This document shows, piece by piece, positions 1 to 10,458 of a stretch of 34,872 nt of DNA. The notes below the pieces were generated by a model. The model did not search any database, was not told where the DNA came from, and saw nothing but the letters and a program-made list of their open reading frames with translations. Location: positions 1-34,872 of the forward strand of contig SKWQ01000135.1 of assembly GCA_007128855.1 (NCBI GenBank), read 5' to 3'. This DNA comes from Balneolales bacterium (GTDB taxonomy: Bacteria > Bacteroidota > Rhodothermia > Balneolales > Natronogracilivirgulaceae). The number at the start of each line of letters is the position of its first letter. Within the stretch, counting starts at the first letter, position 1. A program made the translations under genes and the position numbers.

Positions 1-380
1 AGGATGATGCCATCCACGCCTGACGACTCGGCTTTGAGAAAAAAAGCATCCAATCCGTATTTCATTACCGGGTTAATGTACCCCATCAGTACGATTGGCA
101 TTTCCGAAAAGCTGCGGATCTGTTGCACCATGCTGAAGATGGAGTCCAGATGCACCCCCTGGTCAAGTGCCACCTTGCTGGCATACTGGATGGTGGGACC
201 GTCAGCCAGAGGATCGCTGAATGGCATGCCGAGTTCCATTATGTCCGCCCCTGACCTTTCCAGTTCCCTGACCAATTCCACGGAGTGTGAAGGATCGGGG
301 AATCCGGCGGTAAGGAAAAGGCTCATTACTTTCCCGTTTCCGGTCTTTTCTGAAAACAGTTTCTGAAGTCTTCCTTTCAT
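1..380 (-). CDS. trpA: Tryptophan synthase alpha subunit, N-terminal part (cut by window edge)
   Basis: The first 126 residues of TrpA are readable on the minus strand from an ATG at 380-378. TrpA cleaves indole-3-glycerol phosphate to indole and glyceraldehyde-3-phosphate, and passes the indole to TrpB inside the alpha2-beta2 complex in the cytoplasm. The signature ELGMPFSDPLADGPTIQ is present. Its Glu49 and Asp60 fall at exactly the residue numbers of the two catalytic acids in Salmonella TrpA, which supports this start. The TIM-barrel strands LFLTAGFP and IVLMGYINPV are also recognisable. It is the last gene of the trp operon seen here, 31 bases after trpB. The C-terminal half lies outside the window. 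Confidence 0.96.
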   Translation of the reverse strand, partial: MKGRLQKLFSEKTGNGKVMSLFLTAGFPDPSHSVELVRELERSGADIMELGMPFSDPLADGPTIQYASKVALDQGVHLDSIFSMVQQIRSFSEMPIVLMGYINPVMKYGLDAFFLKAESSGVDGII

Positions 381-411: not shown

Positions 412-1626
412 TCAGGAATGTTTCATGAATTTCGAGATGGTTTCCATGTCCTTGTCGCCACGACCGGAACAGTTCACAACAACGAATTCATCAGGTCGGG
501 TATCCGGCATCATGGTGTAGAGGTAGGCGATGGCATGGGCCGTTTCCAGGGCAGGTATGATCCCCTCCATGGATGAAAGCAGCTTCACTCCCTCCAATGC
601 GTCATTGTCCGTCACAGCGGCGTAGGTCACCCTTCCAGAATCGCGCAGGAACGAGTGCTCGGGACCAACGCCGGGATAATCGAGACCGGCACTTACAGAA
701 TGCGCTTCCGCGATCTGCCCATACTCCGTTTGGAGCAGATAGCTGAGCGAACCGTGCAGGACACCGGGATGCCCGCCGGACAATGTTGCCGCATGCCGGG
801 ATGTATGGACGCCCTCGCCGGCCGCCTCAATTCCGAACAGCCTGACTTCCGGATAGTACAGGAAGGGGTGGAACATGCCAATGGCATTGGACCCACCGCC
901 AACGCAGGCCAGTAGGTAGTCCGGCAACCGTCCCTCCTGTTCCAGGGACTGGTCAATGGTCTCCTTGCCGATGACGGACTGAAACTCCCTGACCATCATG
1001 GGATACGGGTGCGGTCCGACGGCCGATCCGATGATGTAGAAGGTGTCCGCTACATTACTTACCCAGTCGCGGATGGCTTCATTTATGGCATTGCTCAGGG
1101 TTTTCGCTCCTGATTCCACCGGCCGGACCTCGGCCCCGAGGAGGCGCATCCGGTCGACATTCAGTTTCTGCCGTCCGATATCCTCCGCTCCCATGTAGAT
1201 GATGCAGTCCATTCCGAAATAGGCACAGACCGTTGCTGTTGCCACTCCGTGCTGCCCTGCACCAGTTTCCGCGATTATCCGTGTTTTTCCCATTCTTCGG
1301 GCCAGCAAGACCTGTCCAATGGCATTGTTTATCTTGTGGGCGCCTGTATGGCAAAGATCCTCACGCTTAAGATAGATTCTGGCCCGGCCGAAGTGCTCAC
1401 TCAGACGGCCGGCATAGGTGAGCGGTGTTTCCCTTCCGACGTATTCTCGAAGAAGCGTGGAGAACTGCTGTTGGAACGACGGATCCTCCCTGGCAGTGTT
1501 AAATGCTTCCTTCAGGTCTTCAAGCGCGGGAATGAGCGTCTCCGGCACATATCGGCCACCGTATTTTCCAAAAAAGCCCCTGTCGTCGGGCCCAGGCATT
1601 GCTGCCGTTTTTACATTTTCTTTCAT
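412..1626 (-). CDS. trpB: Tryptophan synthase beta subunit
   Basis: This is a 404-residue PLP enzyme that condenses indole with L-serine to give L-tryptophan, the last step of the pathway. The start [15 protein letters not shown] and the PLP-lysine segment [15 protein letters not shown] are typical. So are the GAGQHG loop, the phosphate-binding [10 protein letters not shown] and the C-terminal [12 protein letters not shown]. Length matches the TrpB1 family (about 390-410). The chosen ATG has AGAGG directly against it, which is too close for a normal Shine-Dalgarno. An ATG nine codons further in is a possible alternative start. It lies between trpF (84-base gap) and trpA (31-base gap). Confidence 0.98.
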
Positions 1627-1710: not shown

Positions 1711-2364
1711 TCATCCGTTATCCCGCATTTCGTTCCATTCCTCAAAGAAGCGCTGCATTCTGTCGAAGTCCTTTTTTCCAGGGGATTCCTCAAGGCTGCT
1801 GGAGAGGTCAACTGCGAATGGTCTGGTGGTCTGGACAGCTTCCCGGACATTCTCCGCGGATATTCCTCCGGCCAGAAAAATCGGTTTGTCAGGCGCCAGT
1901 TGATGCAACAGTGACCAGTTCCATGTCTCTCCGGTGCCGCCATGCATTTTGTCACTTCGGGTATCAAAAAGATAGAAATTAGCAGCTGTATCCCATTCTT
2001 CCATCCTCTTTTGGATTTCGGGCAGATCATTTTCCTGCCTGATCTTAAATACCTTGATGACAGGAACCCGGATCTTTTCAGCATATGCAACCGGCTCGTC
2101 TCCATGCAATTGCACAAGGTCCAGCCCGACACGCCCAACAATCCGGTTGACTTCATCCACGGGCTGGTTGACAAACACCCCGACTTTTTCCGGACCCTCG
2201 ATCCAGCCCGAGATTTCAGATGCATCCCTTGGATGGATGAAACGGGGACTCTCGCTGGTAAAGACAAATCCCAGGTAATCTGCCATGGCCCCTGCGGCAA
2301 ACCGTGCATCCTCAAGCGTGGTGATGCCACATATTTTCAGTTTCGGGAAAGAGATCGTATCCAT
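1711..2364 (-). CDS. trpF: Phosphoribosylanthranilate isomerase
   Basis: This 217-residue TIM barrel converts N-(5-phosphoribosyl)anthranilate to CdRP, the Amadori rearrangement of Trp synthesis. The N-terminal motif LKICGITTLEDARFA contains the catalytic cysteine (KICG). The catalytic aspartate lies in FYLFDTRSDKMHGGTG, followed by IFLAGGISAENV and the phosphate-binding AVDLSSSLEESPGKKD. Length is normal for a stand-alone TrpF, so it is not fused to trpC as in enteric bacteria. It follows trpC after a gap of about 100 bases, the widest gap within the trpG-trpA half of the operon. Confidence 0.97.
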   Translation of the reverse strand: MDTISFPKLKICGITTLEDARFAAGAMADYLGFVFTSESPRFIHPRDASEISGWIEGPEKVGVFVNQPVDEVNRIVGRVGLDLVQLHGDEPVAYAEKIRVPVIKVFKIRQENDLPEIQKRMEEWDTAANFYLFDTRSDKMHGGTGETWNWSLLHQLAPDKPIFLAGGISAENVREAVQTTRPFAVDLSSSLEESPGKKDFDRMQRFFEEWNEMRDNG

Positions 2365-2466: not shown

Positions 2467-3276
2467 TCAGTTTGTGTCATTTCCGGTTTCATCGGTCTCA
2501 ATAAGTTGTGCAAGTGCCAGGCCAGGATCGGCTGCGCGCATGAAGTGTTCACCAATCAGGGCACTTTCGATGCCATGACGCTTCAGGTAAGCGAGATCGT
2601 CCGGAGAGGATATGCCGCTTTCTGAAACCCGCAGCACGCCATCAGGTGCCTCCGACAGCAGCGAGACTCCCTGATGCAGATCCACCTTGAACGTTCCAAG
2701 GTCCCGGTTGTTGACACCGACGATGGAAACCAGGTCGAAATCAACGCGATCCCAGTCCTCCCGGCCGTAACACTCCACGAGCACCTGAAGCCCCTCCTCT
2801 GCCGCCGCCGCCAGCAATTCCTTCATCTGCGTATCATCCAGAATCCTTACGATCAACAGTATGGCGTCCGCTCCCCATGCACGTGCTTCCGAAACCTGAT
2901 AGGGATCGATCACGAAATCCTTGCGCAGGACCGGGATTCCGGAGACGGAGGAGACTTCCTGCAGATACATCAGGGAGCCCTGAAAGAAGGGTCCGTCCGT
3001 CAGTACCGAAAGTGCAGCGGCCCCGTGTTTCTGGTAGGATTCAGCAATTTCCGCTGGAAAAAAATCCTTTCGGATCACTCCCTGAGAGGGAGAAGCTTTC
3101 TTGATTTCAGCGATCACGGAAACCCTGTCCGGCTGGAAAAGGGCCGCACCGAAATCCCTTCTTGGGCGGTGGTACTCACTGAACGAGGCGAAATCCTGCT
3201 GTTTGGCCGTACGCTTCCGGACTTTGAGATCCGCGCGCGTTCGGGCGACAATGGTATCAAGTATGGTTTCCCGCAT
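2467..3276 (-). CDS. trpC: Indole-3-glycerol phosphate synthase
   Basis: A stand-alone IGPS of 269 residues that closes the indole ring: CdRP to indole-3-glycerol phosphate, CO2 and water. The hallmark VIAEIKKASPSQG holds the catalytic lysine. PVLRKDFVIDPYQ, LVECY, GVNNRDL and VSESGI follow in family order. I chose the ATG at 3276, giving MRETILDTIVARTRADL, because that is where IGPS homology begins. An in-frame ATG at 3345 overlaps the trpD stop as TAATG and would add 23 residues with no family resemblance. That overlap favours translational coupling, so the longer form cannot be excluded. Confidence 0.95.
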   Translation of the reverse strand: MRETILDTIVARTRADLKVRKRTAKQQDFASFSEYHRPRRDFGAALFQPDRVSVIAEIKKASPSQGVIRKDFFPAEIAESYQKHGAAALSVLTDGPFFQGSLMYLQEVSSVSGIPVLRKDFVIDPYQVSEARAWGADAILLIVRILDDTQMKELLAAAAEEGLQVLVECYGREDWDRVDFDLVSIVGVNNRDLGTFKVDLHQGVSLLSEAPDGVLRVSESGISSPDDLAYLKRHGIESALIGEHFMRAADPGLALAQLIETDETGNDTN

Positions 3277-3344
3277 TACAATTTCAGTTAAAAAGCTCAG
3301 AGTTTCAACGTTTCTGTCAAGATGCTCAAAAGGTGCACAGGGCA

Positions 3345-4373
3345 TTATTGTAAGTCAGATGTACATTCTGCAAGGTTTTCCAACGCCTCACGTGCACTTC
3401 CCGACTCCAGGCTCTCTTCAGCCGCATAGAAGGCATCTTTGATGTCATCATGGATCCCGGATGTGTGGATGGCAAACGCGGCATTCAACAGGACGATTTC
3501 GCGTTGCGGCACGGATGCCTTGTCGTCGAGAACGGCCCGGATGATATCCGCATTATCTTCGGGCGATCCCCCGCGGAGATCCCCGTTAGTGGCGGCAGAA
3601 AGCCCGAAGACCCTGGCATCGAACACACGATTGTTCATGACGGCACCATCCCTGAGCTGGAACACATGAGTTGGAGCTGTGGTGGAGAATTCATCCAGGC
3701 CATCCTCCGCATGCACTGCATAGGCGAATTCCGTGTCCAGATTGGCCAGAATGTGGATGATGTTCTGTGCGGTTTCCAGACTGAAGGCACCGATCATCTG
3801 CCGCCTGACACCAGCAGGATTGAGCATCGGCCCCATGATGTTGAAAAACGTTCTCATCCCCAGCTCCTTCCGGACTGGCATGACATGGGCCATTGCGGGA
3901 TGAAAAAGCGGAGCGAACATGAATGCCATTCCTGTTTCCCGGAAACAGGTCTCCACCTGATCTTTTTTCAGGTCGGGTGTGACCCCCAGGCACCGAAGGA
4001 CATCAAAACTGCCGCTTCTGCTCGAGACCCCGGCATTTCCATGTTTAAGCACCGGTACATCAGCACCTGCAGCGACGAACATGGCGGCTGTCGATATGTT
4101 GAACGTTCCTGAATGGTCACCGCCTGTTCCGCACAGGTCGATGGCGGATTCGGTATCCACTACAACCGGTACTGCCGCTTTCCGCATGACATGCACAAAT
4201 GCGGTCAGCTCGGATGCGGTTTCCCCCTTGCAACCCATTCCAAAAAGAAATGAGGCAATTCTGGCAGGCGGAACGCTGCCGGTGATGATCTGGCGCAATG
4301 CATAATCCGCCTCCTCAGGCGTCAGATCATTTCCTGCAGATATTTTTTGCAGGATGTAAGTGAAATCTTCCAT
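3345..4373 (-). CDS. trpD: Anthranilate phosphoribosyltransferase
   Basis: A 342-residue enzyme that transfers phosphoribose from PRPP to anthranilate. The PRPP-binding motif GTGGDHSGTFNISTAAMF is clear and is followed by VLKHGNAGVSSRSGSFDVL. That second block is the HGN-SS-GS motif with Ala-Gly where enterobacterial enzymes carry Arg. The helical N-terminus (LTPEEADYALRQI, FLFGMGCKGET) and RTFFNIMGPMLNPA are typical. It is a separate protein, not a TrpG-TrpD fusion. It starts 14 bases after trpG and ends in a TAATG with a possible upstream trpC start. Confidence 0.97.
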   Translation of the reverse strand: MEDFTYILQKISAGNDLTPEEADYALRQIITGSVPPARIASFLFGMGCKGETASELTAFVHVMRKAAVPVVVDTESAIDLCGTGGDHSGTFNISTAAMFVAAGADVPVLKHGNAGVSSRSGSFDVLRCLGVTPDLKKDQVETCFRETGMAFMFAPLFHPAMAHVMPVRKELGMRTFFNIMGPMLNPAGVRRQMIGAFSLETAQNIIHILANLDTEFAYAVHAEDGLDEFSTTAPTHVFQLRDGAVMNNRVFDARVFGLSAATNGDLRGGSPEDNADIIRAVLDDKASVPQREIVLLNAAFAIHTSGIHDDIKDAFYAAEESLESGSAREALENLAECTSDLQ

Positions 4374-4387
4374 TTGCGTGATTTATG

Positions 4388-4978
4388 TTAGCGCATATCC
4401 CGTTCCATCCAGTTCTGGATGAGTTTCGGGCCTTCTACAGTCAGTATGCTTTCCGGGTGGAACTGGATCCCTTCCAGCGGAAAATCCCGGTGCCGGATCC
4501 CCATCACCACTCCGTCTTCGGTGCGGGATGTGATCTCGAACTGATCCGGGATGGTATCTTCTTTGAGGACCAACGAGTGGTATCGCGTGGCAATGAATGA
4601 CTGGGGGACATTTGTGTAAATCGTACGTCCGTCATGTAATATGCATGAAGTCTTCCCGTGCATCAGCGTTGGGGCCGATACCACATTTGCTCCGTGGGCA
4701 TGGCCAATGGCCTGATGCCCCAGGCAGACTCCAAGTATCGGGATCATCGGGCCAAACTCCGTGATGAGGGACACAGTGATGCCGGCGTCCTCCGGCCTTC
4801 CCGGACCCGGAGAGATGAGGATCTTATCCGGATTGAGCTCCTTCACCCCCTCGATATCGATCTTGTCATTCCGCACCACCTTGTATGTGTCGGTATGGCG
4901 GGCAACCAGATGCACCAGGTTGTAGGTGAACGAATCGTAATTATCGATGATCAGTACCATGCTGCCGTTGCTGTTCAT
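4388..4978 (-). CDS. trpG: Anthranilate synthase component II, glutamine amidotransferase
   Basis: This class I glutamine amidotransferase of 196 residues supplies ammonia to TrpE. The fold starts VLIIDNYDSFTYNLVH. PGPGRPEDAG follows, then the nucleophile loop GVCLGHQAIG with the catalytic cysteine. The chorismate-utilising subfamily marker LMHGKTS and the His-Glu pair in FHPESIL are also present. The ATG at 4978 overlaps the trpS stop as ATGA, which implies translational coupling and supports this start over the inner Met7. The same subunit may also serve PabB, as in some bacteria with a single amidotransferase. No second copy is visible here. Confidence 0.97.
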   Translation of the reverse strand: MNSNGSMVLIIDNYDSFTYNLVHLVARHTDTYKVVRNDKIDIEGVKELNPDKILISPGPGRPEDAGITVSLITEFGPMIPILGVCLGHQAIGHAHGANVVSAPTLMHGKTSCILHDGRTIYTNVPQSFIATRYHSLVLKEDTIPDQFEITSRTEDGVVMGIRHRDFPLEGIQFHPESILTVEGPKLIQNWMERDMR

Positions 4979-6003
4979 TGCGTTGAAAAATGTCTGACTA
5001 TGCCGGTGGCTTCCCGGATCGGTCCCATCACGGTCTCGGCCCGCTCACGGGCCTTCCTTCCGCCTTCGCGAAGCATGTCCCAGACCGTATCGGGATCACC
5101 GGCAAGCTTCTCCCGCCGGACTCTTGCCTCACTGAAATAATCCCCGATCAGGGTCAGAAGTTCCTTTTTGGCATGTCCGTATCCAAATCCACCCGATTGA
5201 TACTTCCCGCGGATCTCCGCGTTCTTTTCTTCACCGGCAAACAACCGGATGAGCGCATACACATTGCAGGCATCCGGATCCTTGGGATCTTCCAATGGGG
5301 TCGAATCCGTTACCACCGCCATCACTTTCTTTTTCAAAGTCTTTCCGGAGTCAAAAATGTCAATGGTATTGTCATAGGACTTGCTCATCTTCCGCCCGTC
5401 GATGCCGGGCACGGTTGCAACCGACTCCACGATGTAGGGCTCGGGAATGCGGAGGTACTCGCCCCCGAATATCCGGTTGAACCGGGCAGCCAGGTCCCGC
5501 GAAATCTCAATGTTCTGCTTCTGGTCCGCACCGACCGGAACCACATCGGAGTGATAGATCAGGATATCTGCGGCCTGCAGGATGGGATAGGTGAACAGGC
5601 CGATATTAGGCTGCAGGCCCTGGGCAACCTTGTCCTTGTAGGAGACCCCCCTTTCCATCATGCTGACCGGGGTGAGCGTACCCAGGATCCAGGCCAGCTC
5701 CAGCACCTGGGGGACATCGCTCTGGGCGAAAAAGGTGCATTTTTCCGGATCCATCCCCAGCGCAAGATAGTCCAGCGCCACGTCAAACGTGTATTCCCGG
5801 AGCCGCTTGCCATCCTGGACCGATGTCAGCGAATGGTAGTTGGCGATAAAGTAGAAGGCCTTCCCTTTTTCCTGAAAATCAAGATGCTGCCGGATGGCCC
5901 CGAAATAATTGCCGAGATGCAATTTCCCGGATGGCTGGATTCCTGATAGAATGGTTTTGGAAACAGCGGAAACTTGCTTGCCGGTCTTGTTCTGCTCGTT
6001 CAT
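4975..6003 (-). CDS. trpS: Tryptophanyl-tRNA synthetase located inside the trp operon
   Basis: This class I aminoacyl-tRNA synthetase of 342 residues charges tRNA-Trp. The N-terminal SGIQPSGKLHLGNYFGA contains the HIGH-type motif (HLGN). GRKMSKSYDNTIDIF contains KMSKS. The central FTYPILQAADIL and VGADQKQNIE segments are typical of bacterial TrpRS. I used the ATG at 6003. The open frame extends to 6132, but those 43 extra residues are basic, unlike the family, and would nearly reach trpE. Its place between trpE and trpG is unusual. The gene is presumably under the upstream attenuator, which senses the charging of its own product tRNA. Confidence 0.97.
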   Translation of the reverse strand: MNEQNKTGKQVSAVSKTILSGIQPSGKLHLGNYFGAIRQHLDFQEKGKAFYFIANYHSLTSVQDGKRLREYTFDVALDYLALGMDPEKCTFFAQSDVPQVLELAWILGTLTPVSMMERGVSYKDKVAQGLQPNIGLFTYPILQAADILIYHSDVVPVGADQKQNIEISRDLAARFNRIFGGEYLRIPEPYIVESVATVPGIDGRKMSKSYDNTIDIFDSGKTLKKKVMAVVTDSTPLEDPKDPDACNVYALIRLFAGEEKNAEIRGKYQSGGFGYGHAKKELLTLIGDYFSEARVRREKLAGDPDTVWDMLREGGRKARERAETVMGPIREATGIVRHFSTQ

Positions 6004-6112: not shown

Positions 6113-7672
6113 CTACTCCAGCTGGATCGCAACGCTCAGGGCCTCCACCAGCGCCCTGGCCTTGTTAACGGTCTCGTCATATTCCCGGTCCGGATCGCTG
6201 TCAGCCACGATTCCGGCACCCGCCTGGATATAGATGGTTTCATCGGTTACGATCATCGTGCGGATTGCAATGCACGTATCCATATTGCCTGAAAAATCGA
6301 AGTATCCGACCGCTCCTGCATAGGGTCCCCGCTTTGTGGGTTCCATTTCATCGATGATCTGCATGGCGCGGACCTTGGGGGCACCCGAGACGGTGCCGGC
6401 CGGGAAGCAGTTCTCCAGGGCATCGACAGCGGTCATCCCATCCGCCAGCTCTCCGCACGCATCCGATACGATATGCATCACATGGGAGTATCTTTCGATC
6501 ACACGGTCGCGGGTCACCCTGACCGAATCGGGACGGCAAACCCGGGACAGGTCGTTCCTGCCAAGGTCAACGAGCATGATATGCTCGGCCAGCTCCTTCG
6601 GATCCGACAGCAGGTCCTTCTCCATGGCAAGATCTTCCTCTGTGGTTTTTCCACGGGGTCGTGTACCCGCGATGGGCAGCACCCGCACCGTATGGTCCTG
6701 AACCTGTACCAGCACCTCCGGGGAGGAACCGACCAGTGCGAATTCATCGAAGTCCAGGTAAAACAAGTAGGGGGATGGGTTTACCATGCGCAATGCCCGG
6801 TAGAGCATGAACCGGTCACCGGAAAAGCTGCTCTGAAAGCGTTGCGACAGTACGACCTGGAAGATATCCCCGGCATGGATGTACGCTTTGGCTTTTTCGA
6901 CATTGCTGCGGAACACCTCACGGCTGATGTTGCTTTGAAGCGGCTCGTCTGTCCGGCGGTAGCCATCGGCATCGGCAATCGGCTGCTTCATGATCTGCTC
7001 CATACGATCCAGGCACTCCAGTGCCTTTTCATACTGCAGGGCGTGATCGTCAACGGGACCGGTAAAAACGGTTTTTATCAGTATGACCCTGTGCTTGACA
7101 TGATCAAAGGCAAAAATTTCGTCATAAAAGGCCCAGATGGCTTCGGGCAGTTTGAGGTCGTCCGTGGGAACGTCCGGCAACCGTTCCACCTGCCGTACCG
7201 TGTCATAGGCGGAGAAACCGACAGCGCCACCGGTCAGACGCGGCAGGTCGGGCATTTCCGGCTCACTAAGTGTATGACAGAGCCGCCGAAGCGCATCAAA
7301 GTACGGTTCCTTAAGTTCGCGGACGTCCTCATGACCTCTTCTTCCGGCCGATTCCATACCTGACTCTTGCCCCTGCCGGTTATAGCCATTGCTTTGGTCG
7401 CGAAGTCTGGTCAGGGTAACCTTTTCATCTTGAAACCGAAGGATCTGGTAAGGGTTGCGGCCAAGGAATGAGTAACGGGCCAGATGCTCCCCGCCTTCCA
7501 CCGACTCCAGCAAAAAAGGGAACCGTCCCTGCTCACGTATTTTCAGGAACAGAGATACCGGTGTGACCGTATCAGCCATCATCACCCTGTGAACAGGTAT
7601 GGCTGTGTAATTTGCTGCCAGTTTTTGAAAGGTCACCAAGTTCATAGCCGCAGAACGGTTTCGTTGTTTCAT
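6113..7672 (-). CDS. trpE: Anthranilate synthase component I
   Basis: TrpE (519 residues from this ATG) makes anthranilate from chorismate using ammonia from TrpG, and is the committed step. The N-terminal region has the tryptophan feedback site motif LLESVEGGEHLARYSFLG. The catalytic domain carries IAGTRPRG, LVDLGRNDLSRVC, HIVS, FPAGTVSGAPKVRAMQI and QAGAGIVADSDP. These features favour anthranilate synthase over PabB. Possible starts are a TTG at 7684 inside the terminator T-tract, the ATG at 7672 chosen here, or the ATG at 7645 where family homology begins. It is the first structural gene after the attenuator, ten bases from the last T of the terminator. Confidence 0.97.
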   Translation of the reverse strand: MKQRNRSAAMNLVTFQKLAANYTAIPVHRVMMADTVTPVSLFLKIREQGRFPFLLESVEGGEHLARYSFLGRNPYQILRFQDEKVTLTRLRDQSNGYNRQGQESGMESAGRRGHEDVRELKEPYFDALRRLCHTLSEPEMPDLPRLTGGAVGFSAYDTVRQVERLPDVPTDDLKLPEAIWAFYDEIFAFDHVKHRVILIKTVFTGPVDDHALQYEKALECLDRMEQIMKQPIADADGYRRTDEPLQSNISREVFRSNVEKAKAYIHAGDIFQVVLSQRFQSSFSGDRFMLYRALRMVNPSPYLFYLDFDEFALVGSSPEVLVQVQDHTVRVLPIAGTRPRGKTTEEDLAMEKDLLSDPKELAEHIMLVDLGRNDLSRVCRPDSVRVTRDRVIERYSHVMHIVSDACGELADGMTAVDALENCFPAGTVSGAPKVRAMQIIDEMEPTKRGPYAGAVGYFDFSGNMDTCIAIRTMIVTDETIYIQAGAGIVADSDPDREYDETVNKARALVEALSVAIQLE

Positions 7673-7681
7673 AGATATCAA

Positions 7682-7719
7682 CAAAAAAAAACCCGCATCC
7701 AGATAGACTGAAAGCGGGT
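7682..7719 (-). terminator. trp attenuator terminator (pairing 3:4)
   Basis: Read on the minus strand, ACCCGC (7719-7714) pairs with GCGGGT (7696-7691). The stem continues inward after one T-T mismatch through a wobble and CAG/CTG, with loop TCTAT. Nine T residues (7690-7682) follow directly. This is an intrinsic terminator placed between the leader peptide and trpE, so it can only act as an attenuator. It would stop transcription when Trp-tRNA is plentiful. Confidence 0.9.
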
Positions 7720-7771
7720 CATGAAAAATCGGTTACTGGTACAACACACACAGATACCTGTCCGCTCTCAG
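7708..7771 (-). promoter_or_regulatory. trp antiterminator (pairing 2:3)
   Basis: Segment CTGAGAGCGG (7771-7762), which begins at the last base of the Cys codon and covers the leader stop codon, is complementary to CCGCTTTCAG (7717-7708). All ten positions pair, one as G-U. The second segment is the 5' arm of the terminator, so the two structures exclude each other. The roughly 44-base loop holds its own small GGTA/TACC stem at about 7738-7758. A ribosome stalled on the Trp codons would leave the first segment free and allow read-through into trpE. Confidence 0.85.
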
Positions 7772-7779
7772 CAGAAAGG
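7757..7779 (-). promoter_or_regulatory. Pause / anti-antiterminator hairpin (pairing 1:2)
   Basis: CCTTTCTGC (7779-7771), the Pro-Phe-Cys codons just after the four Trp codons, pairs with GCGGACAGG (7765-7757). Eight of nine positions pair around the loop TGAGA. This would hide the segment needed for the antiterminator when the leader is not being translated or the ribosome has left, so the terminator forms. A ribosome stalled at Trp codons would cover the first arm. Confidence 0.75.
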
Positions 7780-7821
7780 CCACCACCACCAATTGGCTAT
7801 ATATGTGTGTTTGATACTCAT
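7768..7821 (-). CDS. trpL: trp operon leader peptide with four consecutive Trp codons
   Basis: The 17-residue peptide MSIKHTYIANWWWWPFC is encoded from an ATG at 7821-7819 to a TGA at 7770-7768. The four TGG codons occupy 7791-7780. Its only likely role is as a sensor: ribosome stalling at these codons when charged tRNA-Trp is scarce decides which downstream RNA structure forms. The stop codon lies inside the antiterminator strand, exactly as attenuation requires. No Shine-Dalgarno precedes the ATG (the upstream bases are TTCTTTCTT), and the putative promoter -10 lies so close that the transcript may be leaderless. A longer in-frame open frame upstream has no support. Confidence 0.9.
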   Translation of the reverse strand: MSIKHTYIANWWWWPFC

Positions 7822-7828
7822 AAGAAAG

Positions 7829-7857
7829 AATTTACAGAAGTTTGTCCCGCCATGCAA
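7829..7857 (-). promoter_or_regulatory. Putative trp operon promoter
   Basis: On the minus strand TTGCAT (7857-7852), a 17-base spacer and TAAATT (7834-7829) precede trpL. The -35 matches the sigma70 consensus at only three positions, but the overall TTG-N20-TAAATTC layout also resembles the Bacteroidota TTG/TAnnTTTG form. Transcription would begin almost at the trpL ATG. Confidence 0.45.
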
Positions 7858-8098: not shown

Positions 8099-8905
8099 TT
8101 GAGAAAATCGTTCTGGTTTTACCCGGTCATGCTCCTGGTTCTTATTGCCGGTATTACATCCTGCGATGAAACCGACGGACCTGCAGGGGTCCTGAGTGAG
8201 CGCCCTTCCATTTCTGATTTCCGGGTAGATCCGTCCGAAATCCGTTTCTCTGCTGAGGACGGCATCGGCGACACCCTGGTCACCTTCCGGGTCGATGTCA
8301 GCAGCAACATCCCCGAGGATTTCCGACTTGTTACCGAGCTGGCCGGTATCCGCGACCGCCAGGTCCGCGCCAGCGATACCCTTCAAGCCGATCCGCAAGG
8401 TTCCGGGCGCTACTCCGGTTCGCTCAGTCTCACCATGAACACCAATCGCTTCGAAAACCTGGTGATCTACGTCTATCCCCTGGCACCCGACGGCAGGGTA
8501 TCCGACCGGGTGGAATCCACCATTACCGTGCGGGGCATCGACACGGGTCGGCCCGAAGTGCTGGAGATCATCCATCCCGATGCCGTTGTGATCCCTTTGC
8601 CCGGCGAACCCGAAAACCGGTTTACCATTTCCGCGAAAGTCACCCATACCATCTCGCCCGACAACATAAATACGGTCCGGCTGGAACTCTTCGACCGCAG
8701 CGACAGCCGTATCTTCGCCTCGAACATGGGCCGGGCCGGGTCCGGCAACGACACCGAACCCGAACCCGAATATCGGATGTACGAACAGGATTTCAGCATC
8801 AACTCCGGCAACTCTCCGGATAACTACCGGGTCGAGATCCACGCTACCGATATCGCCGGCACCGTCAGCGACACCCTTCGCTCCACCCTGATCATTACCC
8901 GATGA
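8099..8905 (+). CDS. Lipoprotein with Ig-like domains
   Basis: No named family was recognised. From a TTG start the protein (268 residues) begins with Arg-Lys, a hydrophobic stretch FYPVMLLVLIAG and a lipobox ending ITSC, so it should be lipidated at Cys22 or nearby. The rest is rich in beta strands and looks like two Ig-like or cadherin-like domains: the first from about residue 35, ending TITVRGID; the second ending YRVEIHATDIAGTVSDTLRSTLIIT. The frame is open further upstream to 7958, but that would place the start inside the promoter. It overlaps the next gene as ATGA. The context suggests a periplasmic or surface partner of the propeller protein and PorV-like barrels. Confidence 0.8.
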   Translation: MRKSFWFYPVMLLVLIAGITSCDETDGPAGVLSERPSISDFRVDPSEIRFSAEDGIGDTLVTFRVDVSSNIPEDFRLVTELAGIRDRQVRASDTLQADPQGSGRYSGSLSLTMNTNRFENLVIYVYPLAPDGRVSDRVESTITVRGIDTGRPEVLEIIHPDAVVIPLPGEPENRFTISAKVTHTISPDNINTVRLELFDRSDSRIFASNMGRAGSGNDTEPEPEYRMYEQDFSINSGNSPDNYRVEIHATDIAGTVSDTLRSTLIITR

Positions 8906-10458
8906 GATTACCCTTTTTGCCTGCACTTCTCAGCTGTCTGCTTCTGCTGCCCACGCAGATCCACGCTCAGATTCTGCCGGGACAGGTACCATCCCCCTAC
9001 AAATCCATATCGCAGAATTCCATTTCCAATATGGGAGTGCTGGGTGATACGCTCTGGATCGGACCCAGGATGAACTACAATATCGCAAACGAACTGGAAT
9101 GGCGGCTTCCTGAAGGTGCCGACTCGGTAACGGATGGACGCGGCCGGCTTTTCTCCATCGCCCTTGCTCCTGACACGGTTTTTGCCGGCATCGGCTACAG
9201 CGAGGTCGTCGGTGAAGCGTCGGTGCAGGCACAGATGGGCTTCTACATCACGACAGATGGCGGCCTGAACTGGGAACTGATCGACACTTCGCGCACCCTT
9301 GACAGCCCCGATGCCAACACCATACGCTATGGCGGACAGGATCTGGAGACCATCCCCGTGATCGTGCCGCAGCAATCCCCTCCCTACATGGTGGATTTCA
9401 AGGGTGATGTTGTCTTTTTTGCCGGATGGGCTTCCGGTATCCGGCGCAGCACCGATTTTGGCCAGACCTGGGAACGGGTCGTGCTCCCCCCCTTCAGTCT
9501 TGATGAACTCACACCCGAAGAGACCTACAGCTTCCGGATCGACCCCCGTGGGGACGGACAGTCCAATGACTTCCTGAATTTCCTTGGATTTTCTGTGCTG
9601 ATCGGCAGTGATGGAAATGTCTATGCAGGTACCGCAGGTGGACTGAATATCTCCGATAACGCCCTGAGCGCTCCGGCCGACAGCATCCGGTGGCGTCACA
9701 TCCGCCAGTCCGGCAGCCCGGAAGGGCTTCTCGGCAACTGGGTCACATCCATCCGTGAGAATCCATTTGACAGGGCCGTTTGGATGACCAACTGGACAGC
9801 CATTACCGGCCAGGACACCGAAGGGATCGTGGTTACGCGGGATGCCGGGACCACGTTCGAACAGCATCTTGCGGGTGAGCGGATTTACGACATCGGTTTT
9901 GACGGCACATATATATTTGCAGCCGGGAACAACGGGGTTTTCATCAGTGCCGATAATGGTGGCTCATGGAGGCAGGTGCGTCAGGTCAAAAGTCCCAATA
10001 CCGTCATGAAGCCCGGAACTACCTACTATGCGGTCAGTACCGCCGCCGGCAGAGTCTGGATCGGCACCAGCGACGGACTGGCATCCACGCAAGATGGCGG
10101 AGTATCCTGGGAAATCACCAGGGTCGATTTTCCGCTGGATGGAAAGAACAGATATCAGGATGACGCACCTGGCGTCAGGGCCTATGCCTACCCGAATCCG
10201 TTCTCACCAAGGCAGCACGACCTGGTGCGCATCAAGTTTGAAAACCGGAATGCCTCGTCGGTCACCATACGGCTGTATGATTTCGGGATGAACCTGATAC
10301 GCACGCTGGACGAAAAGCGCGAGCTTGAATCCGGCACTTACGAAGCTGTCTGGGACGGAACCGATCAGCAGGGCCGGAAGGTGGCTAATGGCACAGTTTT
10401 CTATGAAGTAGACACCGGCAACCGTCGAACCGTGGGCAAAATACTGGTACTTGAATGA
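8902..10458 (+). CDS. Secreted Asp-box beta-propeller protein with FlgD/type IX-like C-terminal domain
   Basis: A 518-residue secreted protein. The signal peptide is MRLPFLPALLSCLLLLP with cleavage near IHAQ. At least four Asp-box (BNR) turns are visible: ITTDGGLNW, STDFGQTW, SADNGGSW and STQDGGVSW. This indicates a sialidase/VPS10-like propeller fold, although nothing shows sialidase activity. The last 85 residues form a separate domain: YAYPNPFSP, then an amphipathic sandwich ending WDGTDQQGRKVANGTVFYEV and KILVLE. That resembles FlgD Ig-like or type IX sorting domains. It is ATGA-coupled to both neighbours. A propeller plus CTD next to PorV/PorQ-like barrels recalls PorZ of the type IX attachment complex, but orthology is not shown. 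Confidence 0.8.
   Translation: MRLPFLPALLSCLLLLPTQIHAQILPGQVPSPYKSISQNSISNMGVLGDTLWIGPRMNYNIANELEWRLPEGADSVTDGRGRLFSIALAPDTVFAGIGYSEVVGEASVQAQMGFYITTDGGLNWELIDTSRTLDSPDANTIRYGGQDLETIPVIVPQQSPPYMVDFKGDVVFFAGWASGIRRSTDFGQTWERVVLPPFSLDELTPEETYSFRIDPRGDGQSNDFLNFLGFSVLIGSDGNVYAGTAGGLNISDNALSAPADSIRWRHIRQSGSPEGLLGNWVTSIRENPFDRAVWMTNWTAITGQDTEGIVVTRDAGTTFEQHLAGERIYDIGFDGTYIFAAGNNGVFISADNGGSWRQVRQVKSPNTVMKPGTTYYAVSTAAGRVWIGTSDGLASTQDGGVSWEITRVDFPLDGKNRYQDDAPGVRAYAYPNPFSPRQHDLVRIKFENRNASSVTIRLYDFGMNLIRTLDEKRELESGTYEAVWDGTDQQGRKVANGTVFYEVDTGNRRTVGKILVLE

Follow-up and report, generated by a model that had tools for sequence, protein, structure and literature searches.

The minus strand of positions 7682-7821 in the window (the whole stretch of 34,872 nucleotides that was analyzed) carries a real and conserved attenuator, and its mechanism is almost certainly ribosome-mediated attenuation, a textbook principle. 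With a probability of about 0.94, this attenuator is of the E. coli type and controls trpESGDCFBA via the charging of tRNA-Trp. A preliminary description of this DNA had already proposed that Trp-tRNA charging controls the trp operon, and this is now strongly supported by conservation, covariation and a ribosome-position model.

We re-read the minus strand of the interval and recomputed every coordinate. All attenuator parts were present and are listed here with the promoter elements and the genes of the operon:

7855-7857, minus strand: -33 promoter element TTG, separated from the -7 box by 20 nt (once 21) in Balneolia leaders
7827-7834, minus strand: -7 promoter element TAAATTCT, matching the Bacteroidota consensus TAnnTTTG at 4 of 6 consensus bases here and at 4-6 in relatives
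7768-7821, minus strand: leader ORF trpL, MSIKHTYIANWWWWPFC and stop, from ATG 7821 to TGA 7770-7768, 17 codons, conserved in 16 of 16 same-family loci
7802-7817, minus strand: 5' arm of an outer helix (GUAU...AACACACAUA), leader codons 2-7, from minimum-energy fold, covariation and permutation test
7780-7791, minus strand: sensor of four consecutive Trp codons (TGG), read directly, three or more of which are kept in every same-family locus
7771-7779, minus strand: segment 1, partner of segment 2, from fold, alignment and direct reading
7757-7771, minus strand: segment 2, pairing with segment 1 through 7765-7757 and with segment 3 through 7771-7762, overlapping the leader stop codon
7739-7752, minus strand: 3' arm of the outer helix (UGUGUGUGUUGUAC), in the spacer after segment 2, supported in the same three ways as the 5' arm
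7708-7717, minus strand: segment 3, antiterminator partner of segment 2, from permutation test, alignment and direct reading
7690-7720, minus strand: 3:4 terminator hairpin, 12 bp, -18.0 kcal/mol, with none of 200 shuffles as stable
7683-7691, minus strand: run of nine T 3' of the hairpin, read directly
6113-7645, minus strand: trpE, anthranilate synthase component I, TIGR00564 above cut-off, start most likely ATG 7645
4975-6003, minus strand: trpS, tryptophanyl-tRNA synthetase (TrpRS), second gene of the operon, TIGR00233 above cut-off and own-genome search, same place in relatives
4388-4978, minus strand: trpG, NCBIfam model
3345-4373, minus strand: trpD, NCBIfam model
2467-3345, minus strand: trpC, NCBIfam model
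1711-2364, minus strand: trpF, best model 205 bits against its cut-off of 215
412-1626, minus strand: trpB, NCBIfam model
1-380, minus strand: trpA, N-terminal part running off the window edge (translation MKGRLQKLFSEKTGNGKVMSLFLTAGFPDPSHS...), named by eye

The three pairings are mutually exclusive and conserved in relatives. CCUUUCUGC (7779-7771) pairs with GCGGACAGG (7765-7757) at 8 of 9 positions, with a 1:2 core of UCUGCU (7775-7770) and AGCGGA (7766-7761). CUGAGAGCGG (7771-7762) pairs with CCGCUUUCAG (7717-7708) at all 10 positions, including one G-U, and ACCCGC (7719-7714) with GCGGGU (7696-7691) in the terminator. The leader ORF with four UGG codons, the three pairings and the location of the leader stop codon inside segment 2 had all been given in the preliminary description and were recovered almost base for base. 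Its run of nine T also holds, but the run ends at 7683 and not at 7682, which is a G. Folding of the whole element, proposed there as a check, gave z = -3.05. A leader ORF with Trp codons upstream of a trp operon, alternative pairings and an intrinsic terminator before the first structural gene are thus all in place, as expected for an E. coli-type attenuator. The Met encoded by ATG 7645 is invariant in all 7 aligned TrpE proteins, and TTG 7684 is a mechanical ORF call that would overlap the T run; with the start at ATG 7645, the terminator and attenuator are therefore intergenic.

NCBIfam models bear out the gene order trpE-S-G-D-C-F-B that had been read from the open reading frames, with trpA recognized by eye at the window edge. 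This gene list was correct, but it left out that no TrpRS gene other than trpS was found in the genome (2.65 Mb, incomplete, 88.75% complete), where the second match has 32% identity. The closest named relatives of this genome are Balneolales bacteria. The position of trpS between trpE and trpG recurs in nearly all Balneolia loci that are long enough to tell, including those that lack the leader. In the Rhodothermales-like loci L055-L057, trpS also follows trpE, with a gap of more than 500 nt. In a search that used E. coli as positive control, the repressor TrpR (TIGR01321) stayed below its cut-off in all 127 genomes searched in the order. The only weak TrpR-like match in the order (G102, contig C5:174025-174228, genus g28, family f2) has 35.9 bits at a cut-off of 67.25. 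Near the divergent side of the operon, the window also has an open reading frame on the plus strand (8902-10458) with a C-terminal end weakly similar to the PorZ and PorU type IX secretion models, and its product is probably a secreted protein with a sorting domain.

Conservation was assessed first of all within the family, where sixteen trpE loci had readable upstream DNA. In all 16, three or four Trp codons stand in a row within a leader of 13-20 residues and a terminator lies 3' of the leader; a terminator was also found in every relative that has the leader. Loss of the Trp codons in close relatives, named in the preliminary description as an argument against its reading, is therefore not the case. 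The 21 further Balneolia loci divide into 15 with WWW, one with WW and five (L047-L050, L052) in which a terminator is present without a WW leader. In the Rhodothermales-like loci L055-L059 no WWW leader was found, and L058 has only a distant WW frame. A covariance model (R1) built from 12 same-family leaders matches 113 of 129 genomes of the order (E ≤ 0.01), the weaker matches being only partly checked by eye.

Outside Balneolia, 22 leaders from other Bacteroidota families have WWW before a frame that reads as TrpE, as judged by eye; these loci were picked by R1 and a pattern scan because they matched, so that 22 is not a frequency for the phylum. The pattern, TGGTGGTGG-N60-90-T6, is unspecific across the phylum and served only to pick loci, and the phylum-wide R1 matches L165 and L167 have no Trp leader. 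Some of the other Bacteroidota leaders have unusual Trp runs, WFWWW in L161 and WWWW in L166 and L201. The preliminary description had given special weight to the fourth Trp codon, which does not hold up: three codons are the rule, four are found in 3 of the 7 readable same-genus leaders (three in the others) and in two distant Bacteroidota genomes, and the antiterminator is no better at the fourth codon. The number is a within-genus variation that recurs elsewhere, and we discarded it as the key novelty.

The five loci with terminator but without WW leader before trpE belong to a marine Balneola subclade, in which the terminator is strong and similar upstream blocks such as ACTAGTGTTTACCCACTTTTT are found. 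No Rfam match was obtained upstream of trpE in L047, L048 and L052. Because the WW leader is absent while the terminator and upstream blocks are kept, trp control in this subclade seems to have changed to another sensor. The attenuator mechanism is therefore not universal in the order.

Pairing 1:2 is invariant and 2:3 hardly varies within the family, so that a covariation signal for them cannot arise there and support comes from the comparison between families. Between families, segments 2 and 3 change together (CUGAAAGCGG/CCGCUUUCAG versus GCAGUGGG/CCCACUGU). In an alignment-free permutation test on 31 Balneolia leaders, which compares the pairs of each species with pairs swapped between species, 2:3 had a mean of -16.0 kcal/mol for own and -12.5 for swapped pairs, a difference reached in 0 of 20000 permutations. 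A control pairing of the leader with segment 3 gave p = 0.81 in the same leaders. The permutation p-values are indicative only, as related sequences are not independent, although kinship also improves the swapped pairs.

The switching logic was then examined by folding the leader RNA up to segment 3 (cut before segment 4) with 29 nt masked as the footprint of a ribosome. The footprint edges are fixed by assumption and folding is at equilibrium, so that the model speaks to logic and not to rates. Averaged over the 31 leaders, the probability of 2:3 pairing, P(2:3), was 0.32 when no ribosome was present; with the A site on the first and on the last Trp codon it was 0.79 and 0.73, respectively, and on the stop codon it fell to 0.015. 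The corresponding values in the window were 0.15, 0.82, 0.73 and 0.00. The antiterminator is about equally favored when the first, second or third Trp codon occupies the A site (0.82), and slightly less so for the fourth (0.73). Shuffled leaders, in which the region between the Trp codons and the terminator was scrambled, had P(2:3) of 0.24, 0.10 and 0.12 (first Trp, stop, no ribosome). A difference between Trp and stop above 0.5 was seen for 96.8% of the natural, but only 11.6% of the shuffled leaders. The E. coli trpL positive control behaved as expected: P(2:3) was 0.51 for a ribosome on Trp, 0.00 for one on the stop codon and 0.05 when none was present. In silico, a ribosome on the Trp codons thus favors 2:3, and one on the stop codon prevents it. 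Non-Balneolia leaders, for which the terminator was cut only crudely, separated more poorly (0.98 on Trp versus 0.51 on stop), and we gave this result no weight.

The three pairings of the preliminary description stand, but it left out a further helix, 7817-7802 with 7752-7739, which encloses 1:2 and takes its 5' arm from the codons before the Trp run. In the minimum-energy fold, this outer helix has 14 pairs, AACACACAUA (7811-7802) with UGUGUGUGUU (7752-7743) and then GUAU (7817-7814) with GUAC (7742-7739). In the 12-sequence alignment, both sides have changed at 5 of 11 pairs. Own pairs had a mean of -13.4 kcal/mol versus -9.3 for swapped pairs in the 31 Balneolia leaders, and -7.8 versus -5.8 in the 22 other Bacteroidota leaders (control p = 0.55), each with 0 of 20000 permutations. 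The search for covarying structures that had been suggested at the outset has thus identified two of them, 2:3 and the outer helix. When compared with shuffled spacers, 23 of the 31 Balneolia and 8 of the 22 other leaders pass at the 5% level; in E. coli trpL, this test did not detect the helix (p = 0.31). Because of these permutation and shuffled-spacer results, we regard the outer helix as well supported in Balneolia and as weaker, though significant for the group, elsewhere.

If the leader codons before the Trp run are barred from pairing, P(2:3) without ribosome rises from 0.32 to 0.62 in the mean and from 0.15 to 0.81 in the window. The outer helix is therefore the probable reason why, in an untranslated leader, termination would be the default. 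According to Elf and Ehrenberg, the E. coli trp attenuator needs a leaky basal read-through because TrpR shares control, and an extra hairpin lowers the leak of his attenuators, as they argue from modelling (PMC1183508). By analogy, an outer helix in a lineage without recognized TrpR would fit this logic. Like those his attenuators, the present element has an additional helix that may lower basal read-through; unlike in them, the amino acid is a different one, and the extra helix encloses 1:2 and uses leader codons.

In the window, 5 nt lie between the end of the -7 box and the leader ATG, which is also the usual spacing in Balneolia leaders. Promoter spacing counts cover leaders with a box at the expected site and thus leave aside L008 and L009 (internal ATG taken) and L018 (short upstream sequence). 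In Flavobacterium psychrophilum, the consensus box is located at -12 to -5 (PMC9723704), and together with the 5-nt spacing this predicts an RNA start about 1 nt before the AUG. Because of the short distance between box and AUG, the trpL message is probably leaderless, a term that we use for 5' UTRs of 0-3 nt. The preliminary description had recognized the attenuator, but not the promoter and this probable start. Leaderless messages make up 5.5% of the mRNAs of F. psychrophilum and are rare in the phylum; in B. thetaiotaomicron, about 3.7% of 5' UTRs are under 10 nt (PMC7366714).

Taking together the sequence elements, the way they are conserved and covary, and the computed folding energies, we infer the following course of events. 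The Bacteroidota-type promoter would start the RNA at, or 1-2 nt before, the trpL AUG. When charged Trp-tRNA is plentiful, a translating ribosome would cross the four UGG codons, reach the UGA in segment 2 and mask this segment, so that the 3:4 terminator can form and RNA polymerase would halt at the T run near 7683. When Trp-tRNA is scarce, a ribosome stalled on UGG would strip the 5' arm from the outer helix and destabilize 1:2; 2:3 would then pair, the terminator would be blocked and the operon transcribed. Without any ribosome, 1:2 and the outer helix would hold segment 2, making termination the default. As the operon includes trpS, the switch would respond to a shortage of TrpRS as well.

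Several other explanations of the locus have to be weighed. Tryptophan might be sensed directly by a riboswitch or by a protein-binding RNA, such as one of the Rfam trpB motif type, with the Trp-rich ORF as an incidental feature. RF04312, a hairpin with terminator, indeed aligns over the element, and its mechanism was left open by its authors (PMC11109978). However, the alignment has 25 bits at a cut-off of 59 bits, and three further sites in this genome give the model a slightly higher score, for which reason we rejected the trpB motif as the identity of the element. Moreover, consecutive in-frame Trp codons are kept across the phylum while the surrounding leader sequence changes, and we consider direct sensing very unlikely. 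No more probable is that the leader is mainly a constitutive terminator, or gives rise to a small RNA or a peptide that works in trans, as rnTrpL and peTrpL do in S. meliloti (PMC7298713). Some Balneolia keep the terminator without a Trp leader, as this explanation would allow, but outside the Trp run the peptide varies and its codons change together with the downstream spacer at the RNA level, which points to an RNA function in cis. A role in trans could still exist in addition to the cis control.

Finally, a Trp-rich ORF, inverted repeats and a T run might have come together upstream of trpE by chance, as the bare pattern from WWW to T run also occurs elsewhere in Bacteroidota genomes. Against this, all parts are conserved in every readable same-family locus, and shuffled leaders rarely switch in the footprint model, so that we regard the chance of such an assembly as negligible.

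Vitreschak et al. (2004, FEMS Microbiol Lett) reportedly predicted such attenuators in Bacteroidetes/Chlorobi. In a 2010 survey, leader-peptide systems had, to the knowledge of its authors, not been shown outside Proteobacteria and Actinobacteria (PMC2965389), and the literature that we found places such leaders mainly in these two phyla. The preliminary remark that documentation of such attenuators is sparse in this part of the tree agrees with this literature; the genomes, however, show them to be common there, in most Balneolia examined and in several other Bacteroidota families. Within the phylum, clues to leader-peptide attenuation of amino-acid operons exist for F. psychrophilum, but they consist of one main-text sentence, with no trp leader described there (PMC9723704).

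Rfam Trp_leader (RF00513) matches the right interval with 24.7 bits (E 0.006), below its gathering score of 41 bits, and at gathering scores no Rfam family reaches its cut-off on the element. The element thus works like Trp_leader, but is not filed as a member of RF00513. With E. coli trpL, it shares the Trp-codon leader upstream of trpE, the stop codon by segment 2, the alternative 1:2, 2:3 and 3:4 pairings, the T run and the behavior in the model. It differs in having four Trp codons (usually three in relatives) instead of two, an outer helix that is not detectable in E. coli, a probably leaderless mRNA, trpS in the operon and no TrpR above cut-off in the order. The Sinorhizobium meliloti trpLE(G) leader also has consecutive Trp codons, its transcript starts at the leader AUG and transcriptional repression is lacking (PMC7298713), but that attenuator controls trpE(G) only. 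Streptomyces trpL1 (trpE) and trpL2 (trpS) resemble the present case in the WWW leader, leaderless transcription and trpS under a Trp leader (PMC8079986), except that trpE and trpS have separate leaders there and a single leader precedes both genes here.

A leader of another kind was noticed in the same genome. In L157 (contig C213, 5110-5245, minus strand), a SAM riboswitch (RF00162, 76.8 bits) and an O-acetylhomoserine sulfhydrylase-like gene are preceded by a leader-like ORF (MILIHAYMAMCCMPCFGRSGS and stop) with a terminator. The relative L215 has MFLIHAYMAMCCMPCSGG and stop in the same arrangement, and a second relative, L216, has ...MMCCMPGIADGGG... and a terminator before a sulfite-reductase-like gene. 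These leaders resemble a Cys-codon attenuator, which in one case would be arranged in tandem with a SAM riboswitch.

The kind of regulator described here is known; less expected is its presence in this lineage, with an outer helix and a probably leaderless message. We tentatively suggest, at slightly less than even odds, that the trp attenuators of Bacteroidota are a structural variant of their own: they would be leaderless or nearly so, an outer helix would lock segment 2 in the absence of a ribosome, the leader codons would double as a lock and so limit basal read-through in lineages that lack TrpR, and the sole TrpRS gene of Balneolia would be under the same switch. The outer helix raises the question of whether basal read-through of an attenuator can be set by the codons of the leader itself. 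In genomes without a TrpR above cut-off, this switch may be the main control by Trp, and it also covers the supply of TrpRS.
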